Below are positions 13,691 to 20,895 of a stretch of DNA of 58,066 bases, in pieces; positions within the stretch are counted from its first letter, which is position 1, and the number at the start of each line of letters is the position of its first letter. The DNA lies in assembly GCA_012034795.1 (NCBI GenBank), contig JAAUOQ010000001.1:1-58066 (forward strand). The letters run 5' to 3'. Made by a program: the position numbers and the translations under genes. The stretch is from Leptolyngbyaceae cyanobacterium CRU_2_3 (GTDB lineage: Bacteria > Cyanobacteriota > Cyanobacteriia > Elainellales > Elainellaceae). The notes under the pieces were generated by a model, which had not been told where the DNA came from, did no database searches, and saw only the letters and a list, made by a program, of their open reading frames with translations.

Positions 13691-13736
13691 GCGCCTGTGA
13701 TACCATGTTTAAAGTCTAGTGGGTTGTAATCAGCAT

Positions 13737-13810
13737 CGGGATGTAGCGCAGCTTGGTAGCGCGCCTGCTTTGGGAGCAGGATGTCGCAGGTTCGAATCCT
13801 GTCATCCCGA
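13737..13810 (+). tRNA. tRNA-Pro(TGG)
   Basis: A complete cloverleaf can be drawn: acceptor CGGGATG/CATCCCG, D-arm with GCGCAGCTTGGTAGCGC, anticodon stem CCTGC/GCAGG with loop around TTTGGGA and anticodon TGG (proline), T-arm with GTTCGAATCC. Discriminator A at 13810; CCA is not encoded. An integrase gene begins 200 bp downstream, so the 3' end of this tRNA is the likely attachment site of the following element. Confidence 0.95.
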
Positions 13811-14010
13811 TTTAGATTAGAGTTTTCTTTAAGCCTAATTGGGGCGACTTTTTTTGCTGCATCAAAGCTTTCGACGGTTTTTATCGCTCTGATTTTTGCG
13901 CTCCAGTTGAGTCAAGGTGTGGATAGTTCTGCCGAGTTTTGTCGATTTCTGTCCAAAAACTGGTGTAAGATTGGTGTAAATTGGGTAGCTAGTTTGCTCT
14001 TTTACACCGT

Positions 14011-15198
14011 ATGACGACCTTAATCAAAGACACTTCTGGCAGGACTTCTAAAGGATCGGTAGCAATTCTGTGTAGTAACAGCCGCCTTCAGCTTCGGTTC
14101 AACTATGGGGGCAAGCGTCACTACCTGTCGCTGGGGTTGCCTGATACAAAGGTAAATCGCAAGGCGGCTGAACTTAAAGTTCAAATTATTGAGCGCGATA
14201 TTGCTTACGGAGAAGTGGATTTAACGCTTCAGAAATATAAGCCCCAAAATAGCCTGGGGGCAGTAAGTCTTGAGGGGCTAGAGCCAGACTTGCGTGACCT
14301 CTGGGAAAAGTGGGTAGACTACCGGAAGCCACAACTGGAAGCCAAGACGTTGGAATGGTTTAGTACGATGGGTAACCATATTCATCGGATGCCTGTCTAT
14401 ACCCTCGATCAATCCCACCAGATTCGAGATTGGATCGTTGCCAATATTGCTGCTGATATGGGCAAACGCCTCTTAACCCGGATCAATGCCTGTTGTAAGT
14501 GGGCGCTTAAGACGGGGTTGATTGCCCAAAATCCATTTGAGGGAATGGCGGCTGAAATTAAGTTAACTAAAGCTCAAAATACCGATCATTTCGAGATCGA
14601 TCCTTTTGCTCGTGAAGAGCAGGAGGCAATCATCAATGCTTTCGAGACGCATCGATATCATAAGATTTATGCGCCGCTTGTCAGATTTTTGTTTCTGACG
14701 GGGTGTAGACCTTCCGAAGCCTTGGGTTTGAAGTGGCGGCATGTAGATGATGACAAAATCCTGTTTAAAGAAGCCGTGGTTTATGCTAACGGCAAGCCTA
14801 CTGCAAAGGGATCCACGAAAACTGGCAAAGATCGGTTTTTCCCGATTAACAAGACCTTAGGAGCATTCTTGGATTCGATTAAGCTAGAAAATGCCAAATC
14901 TGAGGATCTTCTATTCAATATTGACGGGAAACCGATGAACTATAATCTCTTCTGGAGAGCTTGGCATGGGCGCAAGTCTGGGAAGAAGCGGTATGTTGGG
15001 GTTGTTACGAACTTAGCAGAGCAGGGGCAAATTAAACGCTATCGCCATCCATATCAGTGCCGTCATACCTTTATTACTCAATGCTTAGAAGCAGGCGTGC
15101 CCATTCCTCAAGTTGCCAAGTGGGTCGGCAATAGCCCTACGATTATCATGCAGCATTATGCAGGCATCCTTTCTTCTGTTCAGGTTCCAGAGTTCTAG
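14011..15198 (+). CDS. tyrosine-type site-specific integrase
   Basis: The integrase catalyses site-specific integration and excision. The C-terminal catalytic domain shows box I arginine in LFLTGCRPSEALGLKW (about residue 225), box II as YQCRHTFITQCLEAG with the second Arg-His, and the C-terminal NSPTIIMQHYAGIL carrying the catalytic His and nucleophilic Tyr. In box II the usual H-x-x-R is Y-x-x-R. The N-terminal Arm-type and core-binding regions (residues about 20-190) are as expected for a 395-residue phage/ICE integrase. The position right after tRNA-Pro supports integration at that tRNA. It converges with the small gene at 15210. Confidence 0.9.
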   Translation: MTTLIKDTSGRTSKGSVAILCSNSRLQLRFNYGGKRHYLSLGLPDTKVNRKAAELKVQIIERDIAYGEVDLTLQKYKPQNSLGAVSLEGLEPDLRDLWEKWVDYRKPQLEAKTLEWFSTMGNHIHRMPVYTLDQSHQIRDWIVANIAADMGKRLLTRINACCKWALKTGLIAQNPFEGMAAEIKLTKAQNTDHFEIDPFAREEQEAIINAFETHRYHKIYAPLVRFLFLTGCRPSEALGLKWRHVDDDKILFKEAVVYANGKPTAKGSTKTGKDRFFPINKTLGAFLDSIKLENAKSEDLLFNIDGKPMNYNLFWRAWHGRKSGKKRYVGVVTNLAEQGQIKRYRHPYQCRHTFITQCLEAGVPIPQVAKWVGNSPTIIMQHYAGILSSVQVPEF

Positions 15199-15209: not shown

Positions 15210-15542
15210 TTACACTCGCTTTATGCGTTGTCCTTTGGGCTTAGCTTGATTGCTGAGTAGACTTGCTTGGAAATTTTCAATGGCTCTCAGATGAGCTTCT
15301 GGATCGTGCCGATTGACTACCCAGTCAATCATGAGAGGCAAGTTATAAAGAATTAAACGGCTGTTAACTTCAGAATAGTGGATACCCTGAATCAGGGATC
15401 CTTCTCTCCGTAGGCTTTGTAACGTTTTTGTAGATAGACCTAGTTTTTCCTGCAACAGGGCAGGATCTACAAACAACTCTCTGAGAATTACTTCTGGCAA
15501 GGAAAATTTGACGTTGGAGTTGGGAGTACTGGATAAGCTCAT
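15210..15542 (-). CDS. small DNA-binding protein, possible excisionase
   Basis: About 110 residues with a likely helix-turn-helix in LLQEKLGLSTKTLQSLRREG (residues about 31-50), followed by GIHYSEVNSRLILYNLPLMI. This layout (HTH, then a wing-like beta pair and a basic tail KPKGQRIKRV) resembles Xis/MerR-type excisionase helpers. Its position tail-to-tail with the integrase fits such a role, but I have no direct family match. Start taken at ATG 15542; a TTG two codons upstream is possible. Confidence 0.6.
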   Translation of the reverse strand: MSLSSTPNSNVKFSLPEVILRELFVDPALLQEKLGLSTKTLQSLRREGSLIQGIHYSEVNSRLILYNLPLMIDWVVNRHDPEAHLRAIENFQASLLSNQAKPKGQRIKRV

Positions 15543-15603
15543 TGGCAAGTCGTTTCTTCAAGCGTGTCTAAGTCAAGCGTTAAGAGTGTCGAGATGATCT
15601 GAG

Positions 15604-18600
15604 TCATTGAATTTTCCTGAGGTAACGAATTTCAATCTGATGGGAATGCACCCATTGCCTTGCCTTAACCTTTGCAGTCCCTGCTTCAATGGCCAGTACC
15701 TGTAAGTCTTTACCCCAACAGGTGACTTTCATCGCTCCATCTGGACCCCGGTATCGACAGACATCGCCGATCTGAATCTTAGCCCCCACAAAATTAGGCG
15801 ATCGAGCTTTAGGCGGTTGGGGTTGTGCAGTGGTGACAAACTCGGCATTGTTTAGGACAGAACCTCCTTGGGGTAGGACTTTTCGGCTCTGCCAACCTGG
15901 TGACAGTATGGTGACAACTGCACCATTCTTGGTGACACTGGGTTGATTTATGGTGACACTCGGATTGTCGCTGGTGACAGTCCCGTTCTGAGAGTGTCTT
16001 ACCGGAGTAAGTTCGCGCTCATTTGTCTCGGCAGTCCAATTGTCACCAGCGTTCAGGAGACTGTCACCAAATTCTGAGGGATTGTCACCACTTTTTTGGG
16101 GATTGTCACCAGTATTTGGATGACTGTCACCACGGTTAATGACTTGAATTTCCAAACGATTCCCTTCATTTCGGTCGATCGCCAGACCCATTGTCACCAA
16201 TTCGCGCATCAATCCTCGGATTTGATCGAGGGTAGCTTTGCGATCGTATACAGCCCTGGCTCGGTAAATATCCCTGGCGGTCACCCATCCCTTGCGTTGA
16301 GAAAGCGATAATATTTTGCAGTAGCTGGGGGTGAGGTCGCCATCGAGGGCGTCCCCTTCACTGTGAATCAACTTCACCTGACCCAGATAAAACTTGCTGA
16401 GTTGAATTGCGGTTCGCAGGGTTGTTTCGGATATTTGCTCCCCTGGAGTCTGTCCAGCGATCGCGGCATTGAGACAGTGCAACAGTAGAGCCAACACGCC
16501 AGTATCGCTCTTGAACTTGGCGTAGACTGCCCGCAGGCTCTGTTTAACTTCTGCCAGCCGAAGCCGATCCAGCTCGTTATACCAGTGGATATACCATTCC
16601 TGGGCCGCTGGGCTGAGACGATAGGTTGTGGTCGGGAACTCGGCCAACCGTCGATAGATACCGTAGAGAAAGTCTGAAATATCAAGATGAACCGCATTTT
16701 CAGGATAGGAAGCGGGGCGAATGGGTAGGAAGCACCAGAGAAAGCGTGCCCACTGCCCGGAAGGATCGGAAAAGTCGCCCATCAGCGATCGCAGGGTATC
16801 CGGTTGGGTGCTGCCCGTGATGGAATAAGCAGAGCGGGCAATGAACAGGCGTTTGCCCCCTGCCCGATCCACCTTCTGGGCGCTGCCATCCCGACCGGAC
16901 AGAAGGGATTCTTTATCGGTACCGCGACCGCTACGGTACTGGTTTTGTCCTCGGATGAGCGCGGATAACTCATCGAACCAACCCAGGAAGCCAGACTTCG
17001 GTTGATTGGCCTGAATTTGTACAACGGCCTCACGGGTAGCATCCGTGGTGAAATAGTCTCTGGGTTTCGGTTTTTGGGGTGCGGCCTGTCCCGCCTCTTT
17101 GGATTGCCTGCATTCGTCTTCCCAGGTTTCCAGGGCAGCTCGGTAGACTTCTTCAGCCTCGGCTTGCAGACGAAACAGGGGCTTGAGGATGATTTTCTGA
17201 GAGGGGGACTTACCGCTGCCGCTCTCGGCCACAATGCCCGTGTAGAGAATGGGGTAGACCAGTACCCGTGTTCAGTTCCAGTTCTGTACCTACAGGCAAC
17301 AGGCTGCCCGCTGTAGGTAAAAGCGTTGTGAGCATTGCCATGCTGGTCGTCCCCATCCAGTAAGCGATTTGCTCTAAGGGGTGAGCCAGAAGCGAATCGA
17401 GGTATTGGTTTAAGGTGGGGTGATAGGATGCCAAACGGGTTAGGCGATCGATTTCCGTGCGGGTTTCGCTACGAGACTGCTGGTGCTCCAGTTCCTGTTG
17501 AATGTTTTTTACCAGGAACCAGAGGGTGCTCTCTGGTTTGCCGATGCGAGAAGCCCAAGTCATCACTTGCGCGGTGAGTTGGGTATCCGTGGGGGCACCG
17601 GAAACAAATTGACGAATTTGAAGTTGGAGTTCCTCTAAGCTCAGAGCTTGAGGATCTGCTGTTGATGTAGACGGGGAAATCGGTTGAACAGGTAAGGAAA
17701 CCGGATGCTGTTCTGCCCGAACCTGTCGCCATAGCCAGCCTTTGATGCAGCTTTCAATCTGGTCTGGCGACAAGCTGGAGCCGGGATTGTCTTTCAAAGC
17801 TGACTTCCAAAGGCGATCGCTATCTTTTTGACTCAGTGGAGGTGTGCAGCGAGAACAAAATTCGTCCAAGTGGCGATGGGGGTCGCCTGTATAGGACTGA
17901 CCAATGCTTTCCAGATAACGAGCTGTTCCCAGAAGATCGCGTGCTAATTTGGCTCCTGTGTTGTCCCGGTTGCCCTGAATGGCTCCCGCCAAAGATTCTC
18001 GGCTGGTTTTACTGAGGCAGATCTTCAAGGGAACCGACTGGTTGATGGGGAGCCGGAACTGTCGTTCAAACTCTGCCCAACTTGGGGAAGTGGGTTGCGA
18101 TGCAGACTGCATCTGCTGGACGATCCATTGAGGGGCGATCACAATGTCGCACTCGGCAAAACTCTGCCCTGGTAGATAGCGATAAACGCCAGTGGTAGGG
18201 TGATGACCCAGCACAACCGACTGACACCCATCCCAGCGAAACTCCAGCATCTCAGCTTTGCCGTCGTCGCCTGTGGTCCCCGTCTTCAGCTTGCGAGTGA
18301 CAACCTGTTGCCAGTCTTGTTGGGGCAGGCGGTAGATCAGTTGGTAGCGTCCAGGTCTACCGGAGGTGATTCCCACAGTCCGGGGCAGAGCTTCATCCAG
18401 AGAAAGTCCTGAAAGGGTCTCGATCAAGCGATCGCAGGAGTCTCCATCATGATCCAGAAACACCAATCCATCGGACGGCGTTCCACAGAGCACCCCCACT
18501 GCTTTACACCGCCCCGCCCGAATCTCGGATTCAATTTGCGCTTTGCTCAGGGGCGATCTTTGCCAGTTGGGTAGGTAGGGCGCTTTATGGGCACCGACTG

Positions 18601-18676
18601 CAACTAGGGCCAAGTCCTCCGGTAACGCTGCTAATTGTTCCAGCAAGTGTCCGGCATTCATCTCAATAGTCTTCAA
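15604..18676 (-). CDS. primase-polymerase N-terminal domain plus DUF3987 helicase-type replication protein (frameshifted)
   Basis: The N-terminal part (residues 1-230) is a bifunctional primase/polymerase-like domain: VGVLCGTPSDGLVFLDHDGD carries the D-x-D catalytic pair, followed by TSGRPGRYQLIYR and FRWDGCQSVVLGHHP. The middle is a DUF3987 region with a P-loop AESGSGKSP, typical of DnaB/SF3-like ATPases of cyanobacterial plasmids and phages. The two halves are in different frames. The downstream frame is open only after a TGA at 17272-17274, so one extra base lies between about 17210 and 17271, e.g. in the CCC at 17265-17267. The joined product is about 1020 residues. The C-terminal third is low complexity with G-D and V-T heptads caused by the DNA repeat array at 15832-16198, then ends in a small beta domain (QIGDVCRYRGPDGAMKV). 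It probably starts replication of the element. Confidence 0.75.
15832..16198. repeat. iteron-like array: twelve TGGTGACA motifs in two opposed arms
   Basis: GGTGACA occurs on the plus strand at 15832, 15899, 15910, 15931, 15952 and 15973. Its complement TGTCACC occurs at 16041, 16062, 16083, 16104, 16125 and 16192. Within the arms the spacing is exactly 21 bp (two helical turns), with one 11-bp step (15899 to 15910). The three larger gaps are 67, 68 and 67 bp. In the centre (15998-16011) lies CTTACCGGAGTAAG with a 5-bp stem. Copies are read in different codon frames (G-D, V-T, L-S-P), so the DNA motif and not the protein is conserved. Such ordered, inverted arrays are typical of initiator or partition protein binding sites; here it is a candidate replication origin inside the replication gene. 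Confidence 0.85.
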
Positions 18677-19856
18677 ATTCAGCAGGTGTAGCGGATTCAG
18701 TCGGGGTTACTGCTTCAATGCGCTCTACGCGAACCGTGCCATTTGCGCGTGTTCCCGTAATTTCGACTTTTTGTAAGGACGGTAGACAATCTGCTAACCA
18801 GTTGGCAGTGTCTCCGAAGGCTTCGCAGTAGTACTGTATGACTCGATCTTCAGTCCAACAATCGAAGGGGAAGCTAATGAAGACAGAACCATCGTTGTCA
18901 AAGCGCAAACTGTTCAGCACTTCTTCAGAATTGGGAATGGTGCCCACACCAGAGAAGGGTTCGGGTTTGACCCGCTGTCCAAAGGCAACATGGTCATGGT
19001 GTGCTCGGATCAGAATTTGACCTGTCTCAGAATTTTTAGGAATAAACAGATCTCGCCAATTCACGCCGTGGAGGGTGATTTCAGCCCTGCCTCTGCGGGA
19101 GACTGGCTTGGATTTACCAAAATTCTCGGCATTGAACACGGGCACAATGCGATCGCTCAAATAGCAGACATACGCGCCCTGCTCGGAACGTCGTAGGCTC
19201 ATCTTGGCTTGAACAATCCCTAGAGAAAGAGCTTCCTGGTTTAGCTCTCCGGTAAAGCGTTTTCCAGCCGTTTTGGCTGCTTTGAAAAAGGCTTTGGACA
19301 GTTCGCGCTGAAATTCCCGCAATTCGACGCCAAAGGAAGCTCCAAAGGCACCCTTGGCTTTAAGTTGGAGCGGCGCATCCTGAAGCAGTCGGTGCTGCCG
19401 ATCTAAAAAGAACACTAGATATCGAGTGGCCTGGTAAAAATCCTGACCGCCATTTCTGACGCGCAAACCAATGTCCGTCAGTTGCCCCTGGTCGTACATG
19501 GCCCCTAGCCACTCAAACTTGCCCCACTGGTTTCTGCCATAGCCTTCCAGGGCGGTTTGACGAATCACGCAGAGGCGAAGAATTTGGGTTAAGTAACCCT
19601 CGTCTTCCACCTCGGTCTCGCCGGACTCAAAGGTGGCCGTGAACGGCTGCCAGTCCTCTGAAGGCTGAAAATTGACCGCTTCGGCACAGTCCCGCTTTAG
19701 GAACAGTCCGAAGGGCAGCTTTTTATCCTTGGGCGTAATCAGTTGCACCCAGGGCAAGGCAGCACTTTGGACGACGTTGTCGCTGTAGCGATCAAAGTCA
19801 AACTCCTCCGCTGACGGAGTGGGTTGAGCTTTGTTGGATGGATACGCGGGGGTCAT
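18663..19856 (-). CDS. DUF5895-type protein of cyanobacterial mobile replicons
   Basis: A 397-residue soluble protein with an N-terminal segment YSDNVVQSAALPWVQLITPK, LPFGLFLKRDCAEAVNF and a central YLVFFLDRQHRLLQDAPLQL. It resembles the DUF5895 proteins that accompany primase genes on cyanobacterial plasmids and integrated elements; the function is unknown. It overlaps the start of the primase gene by 14 bp on the same strand, so both are probably translated from one mRNA. The C-terminus is acidic and threonine-rich. The assignment to DUF5895 is by memory of sequence character and should be treated as tentative. Confidence 0.6.
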   Translation of the reverse strand: MTPAYPSNKAQPTPSAEEFDFDRYSDNVVQSAALPWVQLITPKDKKLPFGLFLKRDCAEAVNFQPSEDWQPFTATFESGETEVEDEGYLTQILRLCVIRQTALEGYGRNQWGKFEWLGAMYDQGQLTDIGLRVRNGGQDFYQATRYLVFFLDRQHRLLQDAPLQLKAKGAFGASFGVELREFQRELSKAFFKAAKTAGKRFTGELNQEALSLGIVQAKMSLRRSEQGAYVCYLSDRIVPVFNAENFGKSKPVSRRGRAEITLHGVNWRDLFIPKNSETGQILIRAHHDHVAFGQRVKPEPFSGVGTIPNSEEVLNSLRFDNDGSVFISFPFDCWTEDRVIQYYCEAFGDTANWLADCLPSLQKVEITGTRANGTVRVERIEAVTPTESATPAEFEDY

Positions 19857-20208: not shown

Positions 20209-20895
20209 TTGCAACCCCTGCCGCCTTCATCAGAGACCCTTGCAGAACGAGTGCAAAGCTTGCTGGGGGAAAGGAGCGCCCACGCTTTTGCGGTCAAGCA
20301 TGGGATTCCTTACACCACCTTGCAGCGGATTTTGCAGGGCAAAACCATCCCCAAAGGCAAACAATTGCAGGCGATCGCCCAAGCGGGGGAGGTGACGGTG
20401 GATTGGTTGCTGTATGGCGGGGAAAAGCCTCAACCCAACGCTCTAGACTCAGAGGTGACGATGCTGGAGCTGGGCGAGGAGAATGTTCGCATTCCCTTGA
20501 TCAATTTACAGGTAGGAGCTGGGAATGGTTATGAAGTCATAACGGAGGAGATCAGCGAATATTTGACGTTGCCTCGACGGTTGATTGCAAAGGAACGGGG
20601 GTTAAACCCCAATAGTCTGCACGCCGTCACGGTGATGGGGGATAGCATGTCCCCGGAATTCAACCCCGGCGATATAGTGTTTCTGGATGTAGAGAAGACC
20701 CATCCGGGTGAAGGGATTTACATTGTCCGGCTGGATAATGCGATCGTGATCAAGCGAATGCAGGTCTTGGCGGGGAAATCAATCAAGCTGAATAGCCACA
20801 ACCCGATCTATGAACCGATTACTATTGATTTAGAAACCAGTGGCGAAAGTTTTCAGATTCTCGGTCGAGTTGTGTGGAGTCTACGGAAGTTCTAA
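20209..20895 (+). CDS. XRE/S24 peptidase-type repressor (CI/LexA-like)
   Basis: Phage-type repressors of this class are inactivated by RecA-stimulated self-cleavage. The N-terminal HTH domain is AHAFAVKHGIPYTTLQRILQ (residues about 23-42). The C-terminal S24 domain carries the catalytic serine in VMGDSMSPEFNPGDIVFLD and the catalytic lysine in NAIVIKRMQV. Length (228 residues) and order are normal. The start is uncertain: no ATG precedes the domain in frame, and the TTG at 20209 or the GTG at 20251 must be used. It is divergent from the small HTH gene and probably keeps the element silent until DNA damage. Confidence 0.85.
   Translation: MQPLPPSSETLAERVQSLLGERSAHAFAVKHGIPYTTLQRILQGKTIPKGKQLQAIAQAGEVTVDWLLYGGEKPQPNALDSEVTMLELGEENVRIPLINLQVGAGNGYEVITEEISEYLTLPRRLIAKERGLNPNSLHAVTVMGDSMSPEFNPGDIVFLDVEKTHPGEGIYIVRLDNAIVIKRMQVLAGKSIKLNSHNPIYEPITIDLETSGESFQILGRVVWSLRKF

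Follow-up and report, generated by a model that had tools for sequence, protein, structure and literature searches.

An inverted two-arm iteron array inside a Prim-Pol/DUF3987 gene: a probable replication origin of a cyanobacterial integrative element

The window, a 58,066-nucleotide stretch of DNA from the Leptolyngbyaceae cyanobacterium CRU_2_3, carries an inverted two-arm array of short words within a primase-helicase gene, and this array is a real DNA element. It is probably the replication origin of the integrative element in which it lies, a replicon of the Prim-Pol/DUF3987 type, and would be bound by the winged helix encoded in the same gene. The complete array (15831–16199) holds twelve exact copies of TGGTGACA, six in each orientation, all of which had been seen in an earlier note on this DNA and were found again. 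Copies of the plus-strand arm (15831–15979) start at 15831, 15898, 15909, 15930, 15951 and 15972, and those of the minus-strand arm (16041–16199) at 16041, 16062, 16083, 16104, 16125 and 16192; the earlier note had the minus-strand starts right, but it placed each plus-strand start one base too high. The start-to-start distances are 67, 11, 21, 21, 21, 69, 21, 21, 21, 21 and 67 bp. The 21-bp steps and 67-bp gaps had been recognised, but the 11-bp step had been missed and the central distance is 69 bp, not 68. How exceptional is such a cluster? About two copies of TGGTGACA are expected by chance in the 58-kb window, none of 100 shuffles reaches 14, and outside the array the word occurs as two single copies only (21546 and 56365). 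The pair TGGTGACA-N(0-30)-TGGTGACA is confined to the array, its sole cluster, across the 4.19 Mb genome assembly. Among plasmids, there is no DNA match to the array itself. Read as protein, the copies give GD five times, VT six times and SP once, which bears out the statement that the motif is read in different codon frames. The central spacer (15980–16040; 61 bp, about half A+T, with a value of about 0.49 for the array centre) does include the palindrome CTTACCGGAGTAAG at 15998–16011, as reported before, but this is probably incidental because it is not kept in the three closest relatives, and it was dropped as a functional part. No DnaA-box-like TTWTNCACA is found near the window array.

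The host gene is read from the minus strand and is split into two open reading frames. The upstream half encodes the Prim-Pol (AEP primase) domain (17210–18676), and the downstream half (15604–17232) a DUF3987 helicase-like domain (residues 1–289), a winged helix, the array-coded segment and a small C-terminal domain. As the AlphaFold model of the whole helicase frame is poor (mean pLDDT 50.5), the fold search was restricted to the winged-helix segment. For this segment AlphaFold predicts a winged helix between the helicase and the array (pLDDT 78), and its best Foldseek matches in the PDB are winged-helix proteins (such as MecI, SmtB, PerR and CadC; best E 0.0045, probability 1.00). This domain (residues 302–364, 16141–16329), with its recognition helix at about residues 335–347, is the proposed reader of the iterons. 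The segment that follows (residues 367–485, codons 15778–16134) has a pLDDT of 22–26 over most of its length and is thus predicted to be disordered; its codons hold all array copies but one, the exception being the minus-strand copy at 16192, which falls in the winged-helix codons LVTM and is one of the VT copies. An origin can plausibly be written inside a gene here because the segment that it encodes is predicted to be disordered. Where DUF3987 is fused to an AEP primase, it is a predicted helicase of mobile elements (PMC5862659), and the PICMI satellite primase, modelled with DUF3987 by its discoverers, takes part in PICMI replication (PMC10803314). The window gene has the same order, an AEP primase followed by DUF3987 on a mobile element, with the two halves separated by a frameshift: where the frames meet (17210–17232), it is short of 8 bp compared with its close relatives L001, L002 and L003. 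Near the same junction L001 has an in-frame TAG stop, and L003 lacks one base close to the array. The window and close-relative sequences are metagenome assemblies or similar, and these lesions may be real decay or assembly error; the window copy itself may be dead or misassembled. The array is kept in all four copies despite the lesions.

The surroundings of the array are those of an integrative element, with a tRNA-Pro (13736–13811, plus strand; the probable integration target), a tyrosine integrase (14011–15198, plus strand), a small gene for an excisionase-like protein (15210–15548, minus strand; a weak match to PHROG 539, E 2e-4) and an S24/CI-like repressor (20209–20895, plus strand) divergent from the primase operon. 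A DUF5895 gene (18663–19856, minus strand) lies directly upstream of the primase gene and is a possible partner in the replication module. Genes tested rightward from about 26.8 kb look chromosomal, and neither an exact search at 15 bp or more nor one with three mismatches found a second att site or right end. A second tRNA-Pro on another contig (G000:C1:3623-3697) is 99% identical to the one beside the integrase and may be either a paralogue or the opposite flank of an integration. No close relatives were found in viral_contigs, and phages gave one weak match.

Is it the DNA or the protein that is kept? L001, L002 and L003 have 9, 11 and 12 exact copies of TGGTGACA, respectively, in the same inverted layout. 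In the four-sequence alignment with the window, 72 of 88 motif columns are invariant compared with 98 of 246 spacer columns (Fisher p 6e-12). Between the window and L002, identity is 88% in motif columns, 50% in spacers and 76% in the winged-helix code. The earlier note had held that constraint acts on the DNA, and had named as evidence to the contrary homologous genes that keep the amino-acid heptads and lose the nucleotide motif; the relatives display the opposite, with motif columns kept and spacers not.

More distant homologues offer the same picture with different words. A protein search gave 44 plasmids with homologues, nearly all cyanobacterial, of which most of the best were taken; this sample is seeded by matches to the window protein and hence non-random. 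A region starting 200 bp short of the domain end and running to 900 bp beyond it was scanned for 7-mers present at least twice per orientation. In DUF3987 primase-helicase relatives of 25–96% identity, an inverted two-arm array is found in the same place, just 3' of the code for helicase and winged helix, and the word differs with the replicon: CGGTAGACA, AAGTAGACA, TGTAGACA, AGTTGACA, CAGTAGTC and TGTCGGC, and in the wider survey AAGTAGAC, AGTGGAC, TGTTGACC, TGTCAGC, AATAGACA, TTAGGGAT and others. At least six inverted copies are present in 26 of 36 such regions, with the remaining 10 below this threshold; of 426 tiles from other parts of these records, 11 reach it (Fisher p 7e-26; redundancy-thinned set). 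When DUF3987 genes are drawn from across the phylum, only a minority have an array and most of the distant family members lack one; because of this minority, the array is, as far as these sequences go, a feature of a subset of the DUF3987 family. Its position varies as well: it may lie within the gene, over the stop codon or past the gene. In the Nodosilinea/Leptolyngbya group, an inverted CGGTAGAC(A) array begins directly after the code for DUF3987 and the winged helix, and the stop codon falls within it, leaving most of the array non-coding. On a 13-kb plasmid of Picosynechococcus PCC 8807, a 12-copy inverted AGTAGAC array (L072:5602-5888) is intergenic, about 1 kb upstream of the DUF3987 gene and not at its 3' end. 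The arrays of L004 and L021 are degenerate, as judged by eye. True plasmids with both homologue and array are as small as 7.6 kb: on pOSC7112.05 (L062, 7,645 bp), which has the array, the DUF3987 protein is the sole recognisable replication protein. That the array is kept beside the same replication gene even where it is non-coding supports the earlier reading of it as an origin.

Three further repeats were seen along the way. On pOSC7112.05 there is a separate direct-repeat array of seven GTTACAGA copies (L062:308-630), possibly a partition or regulatory site. Tildeniella has a second inverted cluster, of GGTAGACA, about 1.7 kb downstream of the first (L013:8761-8971), which may duplicate the origin region, and a genome of the phylum survey has a 15-copy inverted GATCGAC cluster upstream of its DUF3987 domain match (L051:893-1264).

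Across replicons, the arrays share an architecture as well as a place. They reach up to 21 sites over 200–400 bp in two opposing arms, and the words occupy several reading frames. In many arms, words 9–12 bp apart form an outer block, which is separated by about 42, 54 or 66 bp from an inner block with words about 9 bp apart; then comes a centre of about 30–170 bp and the opposing arm. Same-orientation distances above 25 bp have a period near 11 bp, which is matched by none of 500 jitters and by none of 500 codon-wise jitters. There is no strong A+T-rich unwinding element, most centres being only a few percent above the gene in A+T, and in eleven complete plasmids the turning point of the cumulative GC skew is not at the array.

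What reads the words? Among 18 replicons, word similarity tracks the identity of the recognition helix of the winged helix once helicase identity is removed (partial Mantel r 0.44; p 0.0002 and 0.0006 in two runs), and its correlation with helicase identity is near zero. A strand-free comparison gives r 0.38, and dropping near relatives gives r 0.42–0.46; the four variants together span partial r 0.38–0.46 with p 0.0002–0.0016, values in which some residual relatedness is possible. That the word and the recognition helix change together from one replicon to the next is a second support for the origin reading. We infer from this covariation that the primase-helicase encoded by the same gene binds the words through its winged helix.

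How might such an array start replication? In the mechanism that we propose, the winged helix C-terminal of the helicase would bind words of 7–9 bp, and each of the two opposing arms would hold a helicase assembly, probably a hexamer, with the central spacer between them. Both assemblies would then melt the DNA and leave in opposite directions, with the fused primase domain making the primers. The origin would occupy codons of a predicted disordered segment and hence be tolerated inside the gene. Initiator and cognate origin would travel as one piece, the word changing together with the recognition helix.

Other explanations can be given for a cluster of short words beside a replication gene. 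One is a partition or incompatibility site, a centromere-like array bound by a partition protein with the replication gene merely adjacent. Centromeres can be arrays of short repeats, and many of these plasmids have genes for ParA, ParB, ParM or ParG. The array, however, stays 3' of the initiator's domains and does not follow the par genes, its word covaries with the initiator's own winged helix, and pOSC7112.05 has an array and no recognised partition gene, nor did one turn up among the window element proteins tested; we regard a partition site as unlikely. An autoregulatory operator, at which the primase, the S24 repressor or the DUF5895 protein would bind and control, for example, the excisionase-like gene, seems just as unlikely. 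Clustered words are typical of operators too, and a small gene does lie downstream on the same strand, but the array is located at the operon's 3' end, the downstream genes differ between replicons, words upstream of genes are at background level, and up to 21 sites per 200–400 bp in two opposing arms far exceed a normal operator.

The arms could also act through their structure, extruding as a cruciform or hairpin in the way of the 100-nt stem-loop proposed 3' of orf904 in pRN1, whose type of initiator is likewise a primase-helicase-winged-helix protein (PMC4234260). A single strand of the window array folds better than shuffles (z -3.6), but any inverted set of words would do so; across replicons exact mirror or dyad symmetry is no better than in gap-shuffled nulls, and it is the words that are kept and not a stem. 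A structural origin is accordingly given little credence, slightly below that of the two binding sites above. Least probable is that the words only mirror a repeated peptide (xxGDxxx and xxVTxxx heptads) left by local duplication. Steps of 21 bp keep the frame, and 369 of 618 same-orientation distances pooled from 19 arrays are multiples of three. However, the two arms differ in the peptides that they encode, copies lie in several frames, L002 spacers are down to 50% identity with words at 88%, arrays run past stop codons with words persisting in non-coding DNA, and the encoded stretch is predicted to be disordered. Mixed frames, spacer divergence and differing arm peptides rule out the peptide repeat as the cause of the array.

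Reading the array as an origin bound by its own initiator has consequences beyond this element. It seems reasonably likely that a widespread class of cyanobacterial replicons carries its origin in the disordered-linker code of the initiator gene, with two phased arms and a free word of 7–9 bp that coevolves with the recognition helix. If true, each plasmid or element would be a self-contained, re-codable lock and key of origin and initiator. Dozens of cyanobacterial plasmids and integrated elements gain a concrete candidate origin with its cognate initiator; in the literature searched, no paper joins DUF3987, cyanobacteria and replication. With a motif code readable against the recognition helix, the specificity of initiators and the compatibility of plasmids can be tested directly, and cyanobacterial genetics would gain new replicons. 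Do coexisting plasmids need different words? The plasmids of Crinalium PCC 9333 follow such a rule and those of Scytonema HK-05 and Allocoleopsis PCC 7113 seem to, some of the arrays being weak, but it fails for Nostoc CENA543 and was abandoned: two coexisting plasmids of this strain (L080 and L095) share a GCCGACA array and have DUF3987 domains that are 98% identical, a pair that sits badly with simple iteron incompatibility.

The earlier note knew of no described system with this geometry inside a primase gene, but precedents for the geometry exist in the origins of SaPI/PICI elements and in the lambda origin within gene O. The cyanobacterial plasmid initiator CyRepA (PMC10079941) likewise has primase- and helicase-like parts, but these are DUF3854 and DEXDc domains and the required region takes in sequence upstream of the gene; in the window protein DUF3854 is absent, and only Prim-Pol and DUF3987 were found. 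The iteron plasmids P1, R6K and RK2 (PMC5043065) share multiple, helically phased, replicon-specific words, but most of theirs are direct repeats, they lie next to an A+T-rich region that has DnaA sites, and they are read by other initiator families, whereas here there are two opposing arms and no DnaA-box-like site near the window array. Prim-Pol/SF3/winged-helix initiators of the pRN1 type (PMC4234260) also join primase, helicase and winged helix in one protein with the origin just 3' of the gene, but that origin is a 100-nt stem-loop in which no iterons were found, and a conserved long stem-loop is not seen here, the mirror register being no better than null across replicons. In SCCmec, Cch2 (PMC7581432) is a helicase that loads itself and binds dsDNA with a C-terminal domain, and its iteron site follows directly downstream. 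The DUF3987 helicase with its predicted winged helix has a comparable domain order, but the SCCmec site has only three AAGTG iterons and is intergenic, and a D5-type helicase is paired there with a separate polymerase-primase. Like the array here, the lambda origin (PMC5043065) has iterons nested in the coding sequence of its own initiator. O, however, is a dimer-binding initiator of another family, in place of which Prim-Pol and DUF3987 domains are found here, and the four inverted-repeat iterons of lambda beside a 40-bp A+T-rich region differ from the two-armed set of 10–20 short words. In SaPI/PICI origins, two iteron sets come immediately 3' of rep, and Rep has a C-terminal origin-binding domain (PMC6092414, PMC7581432). 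The likeness lies in two short-iteron sets on the 3' side of an initiator-helicase gene, in an integrase, an excisionase and a CI-like repressor nearby, and in an initiator that is sometimes primase-fused in SaPI/PICI. The differences are an initiator of Prim-Pol and DUF3987, arms in opposite orientation, an array that lies for the most part within the 3' end of the coding sequence instead of following it, a centre that is not clearly A+T-rich where SaPI/PICI have an A+T-rich region between the iteron sets, and homologues that are natural plasmids as well as integrated elements. A SaPI/PICI-like layout, without a clear A+T-rich centre, is now seen in another replicon family, and the array, which would act much as PICI and lambda origins do, is most likely a nested iteron origin of a new variety, outside both of those families.
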